A DNA stretch of 34,172 bases from Phycisphaeraceae bacterium (GTDB lineage Bacteria > Planctomycetota > Phycisphaerae > Phycisphaerales > Phycisphaeraceae), in contig JADLFV010000061.1 of NCBI GenBank assembly GCA_020849625.1, forward strand, positions 1-34,172, in the 5' to 3' direction. Positions 1 through 17,927 of the stretch are shown in pieces. A model generated the notes under the pieces. The model did no database searches, was not told where the DNA came from, and saw nothing but the letters and a program-made list of their open reading frames with translations. Made by a program: the position numbers and the translations under genes. The number at the start of each line of letters is the position of its first letter. The first letter of the stretch is position 1.

Positions 1-56
1 AGTCGGCATGGTTTTGGTGCGCACGAGGAAGTTGGACATGCCGACTGAAGTCGGCA
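1..56. repeat. AGTCGGCA short repeats with a hairpin
   Basis: The octamer AGTCGGCA occurs at 1-8 and 49-56, and its complement TGCCGACT at 39-46. The last two form an 8-bp stem around GA (39-56). It lies just beyond the rpiB stop on the minus strand and could form an RNA hairpin, but no T-run follows, so terminator function is uncertain. The window edge cuts off the context. Confidence 0.4.
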
Positions 57-93
57 CGCCGGGGGCAGGTGAACGTTCTGAGAGAGCCTCGTT

Positions 94-5265: not shown

Positions 5266-6489
5266 ATGACCGCTTCAAGCTCCAAACGCCGGCCCACGCG
5301 CATCCTGGTCGCCGCGGCCATCCGCGACGCGGCGGGTGTCAACGCCCGCCCCGGAGCCGTGGCTGTGCGCGACGGTCGCATCGTATCCAGCGGACCGGCG
5401 GACCTGGTGCTCAACGACAAGGCCCTAGACCCGTCGGTGGTCCGCACGCTGCCGGGGGTGTGCCTGTTGCCGGGGCTGGTCAACGCTCACAGTCACCTGG
5501 AGCTGTCGCGCCTGGGTCCGCGGCCGTATGACGCATCACGAGGTTTCACCGGCTGGGTGGCCAAGCTGCGGCAGGCGGCCGGGCCGTTGGACAAGATCGC
5601 CTCGGCGCGGCAGGGAGCGCGGGCTTCGCTGGCGGCCGGGGTCTGTGCCGTGGGCGACATCGCCTCCAGCCGCGCGGTGATCGAAACAGTGCGCGATGCG
5701 GGACTGACGGGTGTCGGCTACCTGGAACTGTTCGGACTTGGTGAAACGAAGGTGCCGCCAGTTGATCCGGGGGTGGGTGCCGAGGGCGTCGGTTATCAAC
5801 CGCACGCGCCGTACTCCGCCGGGCCGGGCCTGTTCAAGGCGGCAGTCGAGAGCGGGCTGCCGGTGTGTACGCACCTGGCGGAGACGTTGGAGGAGCATCG
5901 CTTCGTGCGCGACGCCGGTGGGCCGTTCCGTGAACTGCTGGAGGATCTGGACAAGTGGCGCGACGAATTCGCGGTGATGTACCGTGGCCACGCTTCCAGC
6001 ATCCAGTGGATGCGCCCGCACCTGGAGGCCCGCCCGTGGCTGCTGGCACACTGCAACTACGTCAGTGATGACGACATGAAACTGCTGGCTGACACCGGGG
6101 CATCGGTCGCTTACTGCCCGATCGCCTCGGATTACTTCGGCCACAGCGGGCACCGTTACCGCCAGATGCTGGAGATGGGCGTCAACGTCTGCCTGGGCAC
6201 CGATTCGATCCTGTGTCAACCCAAGGGCGAAACCAGTCCGCACGGAATACTGCCGCAGATGCGCTATCTGTTCCAGCGCGATCGCACCGATCCTGACCTG
6301 CTGCTGAAGATGGCCACCGTCAATGGCGCTCGGGCCCTGGATTTGCCCGATGATTTCGCAACGCTGCGGCCGGGGGCACAACTTCCGGGGGCGCATCTGT
6401 TGACGGCAATGATCGACCCTCATGATGAAACCGATCCTCTGCGCCAGTTGCTGCGCGAGGATCAGAACTTGGAGGTGTTGCATGTCTGA
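5266..6489 (+). CDS. Amidohydrolase-superfamily deaminase (MtaD/SAH deaminase or aminofutalosine deaminase-like)
   Basis: A 407-residue metal-dependent hydrolase of the cytosine deaminase/chlorohydrolase branch. Metal and catalytic residues are visible: H75-S-H77 in NAHSHLE, His203 in CTHLAE, His262 in LAHCNY and Asp313 in CLGTDS. The substrate cannot be read from the sequence. The NAHSHLELS motif and the GGPFRELL segment after the HLAE helix recall aminofutalosine-deaminase-like proteins (menaquinone by the futalosine route), with methylthioadenosine/S-adenosylhomocysteine deaminase as the alternative. The start at 5266 is supported by AAGGAG at 5249-5254; a longer upstream frame lacks family similarity. 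The last eight bases overlap the start of the dehydrogenase gene, so the two are coupled. Confidence 0.85.
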   Translation: MTASSSKRRPTRILVAAAIRDAAGVNARPGAVAVRDGRIVSSGPADLVLNDKALDPSVVRTLPGVCLLPGLVNAHSHLELSRLGPRPYDASRGFTGWVAKLRQAAGPLDKIASARQGARASLAAGVCAVGDIASSRAVIETVRDAGLTGVGYLELFGLGETKVPPVDPGVGAEGVGYQPHAPYSAGPGLFKAAVESGLPVCTHLAETLEEHRFVRDAGGPFRELLEDLDKWRDEFAVMYRGHASSIQWMRPHLEARPWLLAHCNYVSDDDMKLLADTGASVAYCPIASDYFGHSGHRYRQMLEMGVNVCLGTDSILCQPKGETSPHGILPQMRYLFQRDRTDPDLLLKMATVNGARALDLPDDFATLRPGAQLPGAHLLTAMIDPHDETDPLRQLLREDQNLEVLHV

Positions 6490-7381
6490 CGAACCGATCC
6501 GCCGCGCCGGCTACGTGGGGCTGGGCATCATGGGCTCGGCCATGGCCGCCAACCTGCTGAAGGCGGGTTTTGCGCTGACGGTGTGGAACCGATCGGCGAG
6601 CAAGTGCGAGCTGTTGCGGCAGGCCGGCGCGAAAGTGGCTGCTTCCCCGGCAGAAGTCGCGTCTGCCTCGCAGGTGGTGTGCATTAACGTGACCGATACG
6701 CCGGACGTGGAGGCGGTGCTGTTCGGGGACAAGGGCATCGCCACTTCCGGGGCCACTTCCGGGGGGGCGGGCTTGATCGTGATCGACCATTCGACCATCA
6801 GCCCGGCCGCGACGCGCGAGTTTGCGGCACGGTTGGCGAAACAGAATGTGACGCTGATCGACGCGCCCGTTTCCGGCGGCGATGTGGGGGCCAAACAAGG
6901 CACGCTCAGCATCATGGCAGGCGGTCCACAGCAGGTATTCGATCGCTGTCTGCCACTATTACAGGCGATGGGCAAGAACATCACGCTGGTCGGCGACAGC
7001 GGGGCGGGTCAGCTCTGCAAAGCGTGCAATCAGATCGCAGTCAGTTGCTCGCTGATGGGCGTGGTGGAAGCGATCGCCCTGGCGCGGTCGGGCGGGCTGG
7101 ACGTGATGAAGATGATCGAGGTGGTCAAGGCCGGGGCGGGCGGTTCGTGGCAGATATCGAACCTCGGCCCCAAGATCGCTCAAAACGACTTCGCTCCCGG
7201 CTTCATGATCGACCTGGTGCTCAAGGACCTGGCGATCGTGGCGGACTACGCCGCGCAGGGCGGATTGGATCTCAAGGGCGTGCAGCAGGCACTGGCGTAC
7301 TTCCAGCAGGCGGCGGATCAAGGCGCAGGCCGCGACGGCACGCAGGCGATGGCGAAGGTGTTTGGGGGGACGTTCCACTGA
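6482..7381 (+). CDS. NAD(P)-dependent beta-hydroxyacid dehydrogenase (3-hydroxyisobutyrate dehydrogenase family)
   Basis: A 299-residue oxidoreductase of the 3-hydroxyisobutyrate/tartronate-semialdehyde reductase family. It has the N-terminal Rossmann motif GYVGLGIMGSAMAANLLKAG, the substrate loop APVSGGDVGAKQGTLSIMAGG and the catalytic Lys180 in GQLCKACNQ. Exact substrate (hydroxyisobutyrate, glycerate or a related acid) is open. The start at 6482 overlaps the amidohydrolase end by eight bases. Residues 88-95 (TSGATSGG) come from a tandem pair of the ACTTCCGGGG motif at 6743-6766, which looks like an in-frame local duplication in a surface loop. The last two codons and the stop lie inside the left REP-like repeat of the transposase unit. 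Confidence 0.9.
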   Translation: MSDEPIRRAGYVGLGIMGSAMAANLLKAGFALTVWNRSASKCELLRQAGAKVAASPAEVASASQVVCINVTDTPDVEAVLFGDKGIATSGATSGGAGLIVIDHSTISPAATREFAARLAKQNVTLIDAPVSGGDVGAKQGTLSIMAGGPQQVFDRCLPLLQAMGKNITLVGDSGAGQLCKACNQIAVSCSLMGVVEAIALARSGGLDVMKMIEVVKAGAGGSWQISNLGPKIAQNDFAPGFMIDLVLKDLAIVADYAAQGGLDLKGVQQALAYFQQAADQGAGRDGTQAMAKVFGGTFH

Positions 7382-7428
7382 AGTGGAGCGGCCTCGTTCC
7401 ATTAAGGCCGCTCCAATTCATTAGAGCG
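7371..7428. repeat. Left REP-like palindromic repeat of the transposase unit
   Basis: A 58-bp sequence nearly identical to 8047-8104 and in the same orientation. It contains the perfect stem GGAGCGGCCT (7385-7394) / AGGCCGCTCC (7405-7414) and an upstream CCACT/AGTGG stem. It supplies the stop codon of the dehydrogenase gene (7379-7381). The stem may also act as transcript end for that gene. Confidence 0.85.
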
Positions 7429-7435
7429 TGTGCGG

Positions 7436-8017
7436 TCACCGCTCCGGATTCTGATAGCGGCGGTACAGCACGCCTCGCAGATAAGCGTTCAATTCATTGG
7501 CGCGGCGGATAGCGCGCTCCAGTTCGATGTTGACGTGCGTGTGCGGATAATCGCGCCAGTCGGTGACGATGTGGTGGCGTTGCGATTGCGTCAGCGTGTA
7601 GCGGTAGGCTTTGCGGGCCTGCATTTCATCACGGATGCAGCCGTCGAAGTAATCGTGGTGACGGCTGTCGCGCCAGAAGGGCAGGCGCCGCTGCGGCAGC
7701 AGGTCGTTAACCAGTTTGGCGATTGAGCCATGAATGCGGCGCATCATGGGGCCGAGGTTCTGGCCGTGTTTCAGGTAACCAAGCGTGTGGTAGTGGTTGT
7801 CGATCAGGGAACTGACCCAGGGGACGAAGCCGAAGCGGGCGGTGTAGTGGTTGAAGCGGACCCAGAAGATCTGTTTGGCTTGCTCGGAGGCAAAAGCCGG
7901 AACGCGATCGCGGCAGCGGGAGGTGATGAAATAGACCTGGTTATCGCGATACCAGTGTTGCAGCGGGCGTTGGTCGTTGAAGTGTGCACCGCCCCCGGAT
8001 TTGCGGGTGTGGGACAT
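7436..8017 (-). CDS. REP-associated tyrosine transposase (RAYT, IS200/Y1 HUH superfamily)
   Basis: A 193-residue protein of the Y1 transposase (TnpA_REP) family, which cuts and rejoins single-stranded DNA by a 5'-phosphotyrosine link. Visible landmarks are the N-terminal VYFITSRCRDR strand, the HUH motif H75-Y-H77 in LIDNHYHTLGYL, and the C-terminal region KAYRYTLTQSQRH with Tyr138 (or Tyr140) as probable nucleophile, followed by WRDYPHT, where the family usually has a D(W/Y)P segment. I chose ATG 8017; a GTG at 8047 in the same frame starts inside the right repeat. The gene looks intact. Repair- or host-domesticated RAYTs are single copy, so it may be a host-tamed enzyme maintaining REP elements. 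Confidence 0.85.
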   Translation of the reverse strand: MSHTRKSGGGAHFNDQRPLQHWYRDNQVYFITSRCRDRVPAFASEQAKQIFWVRFNHYTARFGFVPWVSSLIDNHYHTLGYLKHGQNLGPMMRRIHGSIAKLVNDLLPQRRLPFWRDSRHHDYFDGCIRDEMQARKAYRYTLTQSQRHHIVTDWRDYPHTHVNIELERAIRRANELNAYLRGVLYRRYQNPER

Positions 8018-8046
8018 GGGTGGGAGTGTAACCGATGCGCGCTGCA

Positions 8047-8104
8047 CGCTCCACTAAAAGTGGAGCGGCCTCGTTCCATTAGGCCGCTCCAATTCATTGG
8101 AGCG
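8047..8104. repeat. Right REP-like palindromic repeat of the transposase unit
   Basis: Successive hairpins: CGCTCCACT (8047-8055) with AGTGGAGCG (8059-8067); GGAGCGGCCT (8062-8071) with AGGCCGCTCC (8081-8090); and CGCTCC (8085-8090) with GGAGCG (8099-8104). The stems share arms, so alternative folds are possible. It directly abuts the reductase stop codon at 8105-8107. Confidence 0.87.
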
Positions 8105-9982
8105 TCAGCTCTGTGCGAAGATATGCTCCAGTTGGGGCTGGAACGGGGCGGTGGCGGTCTTTTGCATCAGGGGAGCGGTGGCTTGGTTTTCTTTGAGTTT
8201 GGCGATCAACGCGGACATGCCGATGCGGCGCAGGTAGGCGCCGAGGTCTTCGTCCTCGAGTTTGTGGGCGGCATGGTCGTCGAAGAGAAACGCGCAGACG
8301 GCAGCGACCTGATCGCGCGGGACCTGGCGCAGATACCACTGTTCGTCTTCGACCAGCCACTGGCCCTGGTAGCGGGCATCTTCGGAGCCGCCGATTTTCA
8401 GGCCGTACATGTCTGGCCCCTGGCCGATCCACCCGAGGGTCTTGGTGGCGGGGCGGAAGCACTGGCGTTCGCAGCCGGTGATGCCGATCGATTCGTTGAC
8501 ATCGCCGTAGCCCAGTTCTTCGAGCTGGTCGATCAACTCGGGCTCGAACTGCTCGCTTTCGGTATAGGACAGCCGGCAGGTGGGCAGGCCGACGCAGGCG
8601 CCCGAGAGCACGCGCAGCCTGGAGTATGGTTTGCCTTTGCGCGAGCCGTGACCAAACTCCTTGAGTCTGGCGTCAAATTCGTCTTTGGCTTCGGGCTCGA
8701 TGTTGGCGAAGATCAGGTCCTGGTTGGGCGTGATCAATAGTTCGATGCCCATGGCCTCGAAGTGGTCCATGGTCCGGCGGACCATGCTCTTGAGGGGCCC
8801 GCTGCCCTGAACGTCGCCGAGGCCAGCCTTGTCGGTGAGTCGGCCGCACTCGACGTAAGCGCCGTAGGCCAGTTTCTTGTTAGGCAGCGTCATCCAGCCG
8901 TGGTGCAGCATGCGCGCACCCGGATCGAAATCCGGCAGCGGCATGGAGAATTCAGCGCCGCGCTGGCGCACCTGCTGGCGATACCAGTCGATGCCCTGGG
9001 CGTTGATGACGTACTTGAGCCGGGCCCAGTGGCGGTTCTTGCGATCGCCCCATTCCTTGTGGACATCGACGATGGATTTGAGGCCGAGCATCAGGTCTTT
9101 GCGTTTGAACACGCCGAAGGGCAGGCCGTGGCCGGCGAAGGTGGGCTTGCCGTTCTTTTCGCCCTGCCCGCCGCCGACGTAGAGCATGAAGGCATCAACT
9201 CGGTCGGCCTTGGGATCGTAAATCGGTGCGATGCCCACTTCGTTGGTGCGCAGCTCGACGCAGTTGTCGTACTGAATCTCACCATTGCTGGGGTTGCGAT
9301 GGACGGCGGAGAAGGCGAGCTTGAACTTGCGATTGAGCAGCTTGGGGCCGTAGTCGTATTGCTGGGCCTCGTCGCGGATGGCGTTGGGGTCGATAGCGAA
9401 CACCTGAATGTGCGGTGCGGCGGGCAGTCGGAAGTAAGCAGCGTACTGCCGCGCCAGATCGTTGGCGTTGTAGAAATCGGAATATTTGGACAGCGGGCAA
9501 CCCATGACGTTGCGGACGTTGTCGCCGCAGCCATTGAGGGTGTAGAAGCCGGTGGCAGCGATCTCCTGGACCAGGGGGATGATCTGGGGTTTCTTGACCC
9601 AGTGGTACTGCACGTTCTGTCGCGTGGTCAGGCGCAGGGAGGGCCCGCCGGCGGGATTGTGGTCGGCGTACTTGTTGGCGATCTCGTCAAACACGCGCCA
9701 TTGGGCCGCGGTAAAGGCGCCGCCGCCGGGTATCGACACGCGGACCATGAACATCCAGTCTTTTTCCCGGCCGGTCCTGGCCCGGTTGTATTCCAGGTAG
9801 ATGCCGTGGCTCTTGGATATCTGTTCGGCGCAGTCAGCCAGATCGTCGTGGCTCAGGTCGCGGTATTGGCGCGGCAGGTCATCGACCAGGGCCGAGTCCT
9901 GCTTGTAGCGCTCGACCTTGTTGAGCTGGTCGTCGGGGGTGTGAAACAAAGGTTCCGGGGATTTTCCGGGGGTGCCGGGCAT
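8105..9982 (-). CDS. Siroheme-[4Fe-4S] nitrite/sulfite reductase
   Basis: A 625-residue single-chain reductase that carries out six-electron reduction of sulfite to sulfide or nitrite to ammonia, probably with ferredoxin as donor. The siroheme-4Fe4S ligands are C463-X5-C469 (GACVGLPTC) and C504-X3-C508 (CERQC). Two ferrodoxin-like/siroheme half-domains are visible, with RLTTRQNVQYHWV in the first and GIELLITPNQDLIFANI in the second. Length fits the ferredoxin-dependent family rather than the longer NADH nitrite reductases. Start ATG 9982 has AGGAG five bases upstream. Sulfite versus nitrite cannot be decided from sequence alone; no sulfate- or nitrate-assimilation gene is adjacent. Its 3' end abuts the right REP-like repeat. 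Confidence 0.9.
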   Translation of the reverse strand: MPGTPGKSPEPLFHTPDDQLNKVERYKQDSALVDDLPRQYRDLSHDDLADCAEQISKSHGIYLEYNRARTGREKDWMFMVRVSIPGGGAFTAAQWRVFDEIANKYADHNPAGGPSLRLTTRQNVQYHWVKKPQIIPLVQEIAATGFYTLNGCGDNVRNVMGCPLSKYSDFYNANDLARQYAAYFRLPAAPHIQVFAIDPNAIRDEAQQYDYGPKLLNRKFKLAFSAVHRNPSNGEIQYDNCVELRTNEVGIAPIYDPKADRVDAFMLYVGGGQGEKNGKPTFAGHGLPFGVFKRKDLMLGLKSIVDVHKEWGDRKNRHWARLKYVINAQGIDWYRQQVRQRGAEFSMPLPDFDPGARMLHHGWMTLPNKKLAYGAYVECGRLTDKAGLGDVQGSGPLKSMVRRTMDHFEAMGIELLITPNQDLIFANIEPEAKDEFDARLKEFGHGSRKGKPYSRLRVLSGACVGLPTCRLSYTESEQFEPELIDQLEELGYGDVNESIGITGCERQCFRPATKTLGWIGQGPDMYGLKIGGSEDARYQGQWLVEDEQWYLRQVPRDQVAAVCAFLFDDHAAHKLEDEDLGAYLRRIGMSALIAKLKENQATAPLMQKTATAPFQPQLEHIFAQS

Positions 9983-17670: not shown

Positions 17671-17744
17671 GCCCCTGTAGCTCAGTTGGATAGAGCAGCG
17701 CTTTCCTAAAGCGCAGGTCGCAGGTTCGAATCCTGCCGGGGGCG
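17671..17744 (+). tRNA. tRNA-Arg (anticodon CCT)
   Basis: A 74-nt cloverleaf: acceptor GCCCCTG / CGGGGGC, D-arm GCTC/GAGC, anticodon stem GCGCT/AGCGC with loop TTCCTAA giving CCT (reads AGG), T-arm GCAGG/CCTGC with TTCGAAT, discriminator G. The 3' CCA is not encoded. Confidence 0.96.
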
Positions 17745-17853: not shown

Positions 17854-17927
17854 GCGCCCGTAGCTCAGTTGGATAGAGCAGCCGCCTTCTAAGCGGCAGG
17901 TCGTGCGTTCGAGTCGCACCGGGCGTA
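17854..17927 (+). tRNA. tRNA-Arg (anticodon TCT)
   Basis: A 74-nt cloverleaf: acceptor GCGCCCG / CGGGCGT (one G-U pair), D-arm GCTC/GAGC, anticodon stem GCCGC/GCGGC with loop CTTCTAA giving TCT (reads AGA and AGG), T-arm GTGCG/CGCAC with TTCGAGT, discriminator A. No encoded CCA. With the upstream CCT tRNA it forms a dedicated AGR-codon arginine pair. Confidence 0.96.

Follow-up and report, generated by a model that had tools for sequence, protein, structure and literature searches.

A window of 34,172 nucleotides, the whole stretch analysed here from a Phycisphaeraceae bacterium (contig JADLFV010000061.1), contains what is most probably a REPtron/REPIN system, i.e. a REP-associated HUH-Y1 single-stranded DNA transposase with a copy of an inverted REP pair on each side. 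From the sequence we estimate the probability of this reading at about 0.88. It is built on established observations: the anatomy of the locus, the dispersed copies, a conserved loop and foot with a covarying stem, the co-divergence of stem and enzyme, an association at the genome level, the predicted fold and the absence of the gene from syntenic relatives. The features are the following, with positions in the window.

35-62, minus strand: dispersed REP of the hairpin family of the C91 paralogue (GGCGTGCCGACTTCAGTCGGCATGTC)
6422-7381, plus strand: left neighbour, a 3-hydroxyisobutyrate / 2-hydroxy-3-oxopropionate reductase-like dehydrogenase, stop codon inside a REP
7370-7394, minus strand: REP unit in R orientation, AGGC foot at the inner end (ACGTTCCACTGAAGTGGAGCGGCCT), holding the TGA stop of the left neighbour
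7395-7404, no strand: spacer of the left copy (CGTTCCATTA), between two inward feet
7405-7429, plus strand: REP unit in Y orientation, AGGC-CGCTCCAATTCATTAGAGCG-T
7436-8014, minus strand: RAYT / TnpA-REP-like HUH-Y1 transposase, 192 aa, frame open to GTG 8047
7598-7600: codon of the catalytic Tyr139, with Gln143 four residues on
7787-7795: codons of the HYH motif of the transposase
8046-8071, minus strand: REP unit in R orientation with a degenerate apex (CTAAAAG)
8072-8080, no strand: spacer of the right copy (CGTTCCATT)
8081-8105, plus strand: REP unit in Y orientation, AGGC-CGCTCCAATTCATTGGAGCG-T, its last base belonging to the minus-strand stop codon of the right neighbour
8105-9982, minus strand: right neighbour, an assimilatory sulfite reductase-like protein, stop codon abutting a REP

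The transposase reading frame (minus strand, 7436-8047) sits between two direct repeats at 7370-7429 and 8046-8105. Its likely start is ATG 8014, since this is where the family's N-terminal K-S-S sets in; GTG 8047 was dropped as a start for the same reason. The protein matches the NCBIfam family of REP-associated tyrosine transposases (NF047646, REP_Tyr_transpos) with 55.1 bits and an E-value of 7e-15, against a curated cut-off of 80 bits. It appears clearly related to this family but, being below the cut-off, outside its curated core. Pfam gave no match to the transposase at 0.001, the Pfam family Y1_Tnp was touched weakly by 13 of 23 relatives, and its sequence profile found nothing real in the PDB.

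An AlphaFold model of the transposase, built from a 23-sequence alignment, has a mean pLDDT of 84.5. Its best structural match is 4ER8, the E. coli TnpA-REP (REP-associated tyrosine transposase) with a bound REP hairpin (Foldseek E-value 1.9e-7; VIA Z 14.7, 142 residues, 3.4 A), and the next folds are the IS608 and ISDra2 transposases. Profile and fold both agree with the RAYT transposase proposed in the preliminary description of this DNA. Asn-His-Tyr-His, Tyr139 and Gln143 do not vary among the aligned sequences, and the protein combines the HUH motif with a single catalytic tyrosine on a Y1 fold, as in the HUH-Y1 (TnpA-Y1) superfamily. The Y---NP motif of class 2 TnpA-REP, which includes RAYT groups 2-5, is absent; the transposase has Y---Q (YTLTQS, 139-143), i.e. 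Tyr-x3-Gln.

The two repeat copies align over 49 of about 58 bp at 96% identity, as expected from the direct 58-bp copies reported earlier. Each 58-mer is formed by two inverted REP units with their AGGC feet inward, separated by a spacer of 9-10 bases, CGTTCCATT(A). In the TTCA-loop orientation the unit reads AGGC-CGCTCCAnTTCAnTGGAGCG-T. One spacer base differs between left and right (CGTTCCATTA vs CGTTCCATT), and the right repeat has the degenerate apex CTAAAAG and a few further single-base differences. Folded as single-stranded DNA, each repeat forms a single long hairpin, at -19.3 kcal/mol (z -7.0) and -22.8 kcal/mol (z -8.7), equalled by no shuffle. For the right copy there is an alternative fold with two terminal hairpins at -13.1 kcal/mol that share their arms with the long hairpin, so the alternating hairpins with shared arms described before are found again. 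Three of the four hairpins at the locus are imperfect, therefore the local copies may be decaying. The canonical GTAG/GTGG 5' foot is not present. The foot is AGGC/TAGG, of which only the GG is common across the family, and the repeat was thus rightly said not to be a GTAG-type REP.

The neighbouring genes are convergent. The sequence itself shows the left gene's TGA stop (7379-7381) within the first hairpin apex (CACTGAAGTG) and, for the right gene, a stop at 8105-8107 that starts on the last base of the second repeat, i.e. the element is wedged between two convergent genes and touches both stops, as first described. Two adjacent tRNA genes are also present in the window, at 17671-17744 and 17854-17927 (Rfam).

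Copies of the repeat away from the transposase, a count proposed in the preliminary description, were sought genome-wide by pattern and covariance-model searches. The full 58-mer exists in only two copies, both at the transposase gene, and was rejected as the dispersed repeat. For the single REP unit, a strict pattern gives 20 matches and a second one, allowing up to three mismatches, gives 30; a reversed-pattern control has 0 matches in the genome, and the single REP pattern occurs 0-2 times per genome in 60 relatives. Eight dispersed pairs consist of two inverted REPs with a short spacer, as in REPINs. Their feet point outward in 8/8 cases, opposite to the pairs flanking RAYT genes across the family: among those whose two units have defined and opposite orientations, the feet are inward in 15/15. 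Among the loci examined from four other genomes there were no dispersed REP pairs.

Using a crude gene caller, 28 of the 42 dispersed sites are intergenic, compared with 12% of random positions. Twelve of these 28 lie between convergent genes, 15 between tandem genes, one is undefined and none is divergent. Many of the 14 sites called as genic are near one of the ends of a called frame, whose start may be called too far upstream. The gene is thus flanked by REP hairpins that are also dispersed between genes of the same genome, which is the arrangement of a RAYT / REPtron.

The genome has two further members of the RAYT family, on contigs C35 and C91, 54-57% identical, each flanked by its own, different direct multi-hairpin repeats. 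There are accordingly three RAYTs with three different REP pairs, and each RAYT is present once. Hairpins of the C91 family are likewise dispersed in the genome, and the C35 family has 11 matches. Palindromes such as GGCCTGGTCGCTTAAGCGACCAGGCC match none of the three RAYTs, and RAYTs of other planctomycetes (L045, L062) have near-identical stems in their flanks. Near-perfect palindromes of the form GGC(C/A)TGGTCGCTTAAGCGACCA(G/T)GCC (L153, L154, L169, L172) are also dispersed in the genome without a cognate RAYT, with stems that resemble those flanking RAYTs in Lacipirellula (L062).

The earlier suggestion that the enzyme may serve other palindromic elements of the genome is supported, with two corrections. 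Related palindromes are indeed dispersed (20-30, against 0 in the control), but what is dispersed is the half-unit and not the 58-mer itself, and its pairs are arranged the opposite way round. The main clients of the enzyme are probably the REPs of its own cognate family, because the other two RAYTs have theirs; we infer that it moves or maintains these palindromes.

A search of genome contigs for the transposase family returned 44 loci, nearly all from Planctomycetota. One locus, L095 (WYBR01000013.1), is titled Vicinamibacteraceae (Acidobacteria); its coordinates and sequence match genome G048 (L050, G048:C77), the title is probably wrong, and G048 is placed in the same order as the genome of the window. 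The members L064, L066 and L056/L102 carry internal stop codons or a frameshift, i.e. some genomes have a decaying transposase. For 59 family loci, which include some genomes seen twice, we counted in the 250-bp flanks 113 hairpins of at least 8 bp against 11.1 in shuffled sequence, and a chance origin of the flanking hairpins is therefore excluded. The loop is TTNA or its complement in 65 of 70 hairpins (at least seven perfect pairs, a four-base loop, duplicates removed, loop not preselected). Such a hairpin is present on at least one side in 33 of the 46 loci with both flanks readable, and on both sides in 16.

Alignment of the units on the loop shows a G at one fixed distance on its 5' side in 62/64, and the symmetric 3' position is free. 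The stems vary across about 45 planctomycete relatives while the TTNA loop and the G stay constant. The stem is 95% paired, with a covariation of 0.903 compared with 0.237 when shuffled and at most 0.140 when slid. Stem similarity follows transposase similarity (Mantel r 0.52, p 0.0001, n=33), more weakly among pairs more than 30% divergent (r 0.27). At the genome level, a covariance model built from units in RAYT flanks, some of them belonging to genomes that were then counted, has a median of 15 matches in 12 RAYT genomes and 1 in 49 without (Mann-Whitney p 3.3e-6). The association of hairpins and RAYTs across genomes is strong but not strict. Four RAYT-free genomes have 14-25 matches to the model; hairpin numbers are also given as 10-25 for G023, G027, G013 and G022, and as 12-25 REP-like hairpins with a TTNA loop when G012 is included. 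These hairpins are either orphans or have a more distantly related TnpA-Y1 as their enzyme.

These results bear on a reading in which the hairpins serve the convergent genes, by terminating transcription from both directions or by stabilising the mRNA, with the transposase as a passenger. The convergent position, the stop codons at the hairpins and the dispersed copies, never between divergent genes, would all fit. However, it leaves unexplained the conserved asymmetric foot and loop next to a free stem, the three RAYT-specific hairpin families in one genome and the association of hairpins with RAYT genes across genomes, and no T-run follows the hairpins in the sequence. On these grounds we reject it as the sole explanation and consider it very improbable; a terminator role could coexist with the REP role.

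The transposase family is carried by 12 of the 61 genomes searched. In five relatives of the same family the dehydrogenase, sulfite reductase and UDP-glucose dehydrogenase-like genes follow each other in this order, and a RAYT is there in none of the five. Behind the dehydrogenase, where the window has the RAYT, they (L124, L128, L129, L131, L132) encode a small membrane protein of about 120-150 aa (...YAWLLLFSALDIMLTWVIL...), whose gene the window lacks. Because these syntenic relatives lack the RAYT at this place, the element does not look ancestral at the site. The comparison with relatives for an empty site, as envisaged at first, gave five syntenic relatives without the RAYT, but not a strict empty site, since another gene is there. 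The preliminary description named a repeat found nowhere else and a vertically inherited gene without empty sites as what would speak against it, and neither half of this agrees with the results. In L124 (850-1520) and L128 (180-1520) the same convergent intergenic region holds another REPIN-like pair of a different REP family, with the apex CTACG/CGTAG (TAGCCGGCGGGCTACGCCCGCC...GGCCGCGTAGCGGCCCGGCTA).

A vertically inherited, domesticated host nuclease gene, with the flanking repeats as relics, would have a single copy per REP family and a mostly intact reading frame, both of which are seen. To this explanation we give hardly any credence, as it conflicts with the patchy distribution among the genomes searched and with the five genomes that keep both neighbours with the different gene between them.

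We also consider an autonomous IS200/IS605-like insertion sequence, in which the flanking hairpins are the ends, the whole moves as a unit and the dispersed pairs are MITE-like deletion derivatives. The gene would then lie between outward-footed REPs (AGGC-hairpin-gene-hairpin-GCCT), as in the dispersed pairs, and the innermost units around the gene do have the Y..R order (feet outward) found in all eight of them. The non-ancestral site and the Gln at +4 of the catalytic motif, as in IS200, point the same way. However, each RAYT is present in one copy and the paralogues are about 55% identical with different ends, so nothing points to recent transposition as a unit, and the space between the two repeats holds the transposase gene only, with no tnpB. 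We regard this alternative as unlikely.

For the REPtron/REPIN reading, the published group that fits best is class 3 TnpA-Y1 (Quentin et al. 2018, PMC6006769), and judged by the features described there the transposase is most like this class; we call it class 3-like. Class 3 is described as rare, mainly planctomycete, with several genes per genome, and flanked by atypical, non-GTAG hairpins that can be multicopy; its members are HUH-Y1 proteins with Gln rather than Asn-Pro after the catalytic tyrosine. The Tyr-then-Gln, the planctomycete distribution and the atypical multicopy hairpins are all found here, apart from a spacing difference: the motif is printed with four dashes after the tyrosine, whereas here the Gln is at Tyr+4, one dash off. 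The reported 5' foot also differs, CnGA compared with AGGC here and, across the family, a GG at a fixed distance; the CGGA of the C35 paralogue would fit. CTGA as the 5' foot of the central hairpin, which would fit CnGA, was dropped because the conserved GG foot of the family, on the other side, is fixed relative to the TTNA loop. The consulted text on class 3 describes neither the pair arrangement nor a TTNA loop.

Other systems share single traits. The group 3 TnpA-REP of Marinomonas (REPtron Mb, PMC8266576) has a perfectly palindromic REP with a T-T-N-A loop, in which T..A is essential and position 3 free, and a guide tetranucleotide at the 5' foot, where a GTGG guide leads to cleavage at CC; in contrast, its foot is GTAG and it is a class 2 enzyme with Y---NP, i.e. 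a different subclass. The E. coli TnpA-REP (4ER8) is the nearest solved fold and has REP pairs around the gene as well as dispersed, but at 15-16% identity, with a GTAG foot, a bulged stem and Asn119 in place of the Gln. REPINs (Bertels and Rainey 2011, PMC3116915) are likewise inverted, dispersed, RAYT-linked REP doublets with a short spacer; here, however, the copy number is low (tens) and the dispersed pairs are outward and the gene-flanking pairs inward. The IS200/IS605 transposases (IS608, ISDra2) share the HUH-Y1 fold and the Tyr...Gln spacing of 4, whereas here there are multiple hairpin pairs, single diverged copies and no sign of unit transposition. Compared with the consulted literature, four points are new: the constant TTNA loop and fixed GG foot with a free stem, the co-divergence of stem and enzyme, the presence in one genome of several private pairs that do not belong to the GTAG classes, and the contrast in orientation between pairs at the gene and pairs elsewhere in the genome. 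A REP system of this non-GTAG kind is under-described.

TnpA-REP enzymes bind the folded single-stranded REP and recognise the loop or stem irregularities, and the 5' tetranucleotide can guide the choice of the cleavage dinucleotide; in the Marinomonas REP the loop is TTTA, positions 1, 2 and 4 matter, 3 is free and T..A is paired (PMC8266576). By analogy, the transposase would bind its REP as folded single-stranded DNA, reading the TTNA loop at the hairpin tip and, a fixed distance away on the 5' side, the GG-containing foot. The foot may act as a guide that picks a short cleavage site, which we predict to be a C-rich dinucleotide because the GTGG guide moved cleavage to CC in Marinomonas. 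The enzyme would cut and rejoin through a 5'-phosphotyrosine at Tyr139, and REPs and REP pairs would thereby be copied or excised from single-stranded (lagging-strand) DNA. Binding, cleavage, guide pairing and mobility are thus proposed on the model of studied enzymes, and cutting and rejoining of cognate REPs on single-stranded DNA is most likely what disperses them. The stem would be the pair-specific address of each transposase, which would account for the different stem families of the three RAYTs.

REP systems have been studied mostly in Proteobacteria, with a GTAG guide. The planctomycete system follows the same REP plan of hairpin, foot, RAYT and inverted pairs, and has another foot together with a constant loop. 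Tentatively, Planctomycetes may hold a large and hardly described REP world in which the TTNA loop and GG foot are constant and the free stem is the private address of each transposase, giving several pairs per genome that do not cross-react. Only the outward form, AGGC-hairpin-spacer-hairpin-GCCT, would be mobile, hence the flanking pairs inward and the dispersed ones outward, and the transposase gene would be the over-long spacer of such a unit. The many diverged enzyme/hairpin pairs, three of them in this genome, are a natural cognate set for asking which bases a single-stranded DNA transposase recognises and how new specificities come about. That the pairs at the gene and those at dispersed sites are oriented in opposite ways is a testable clue to the mobile form.
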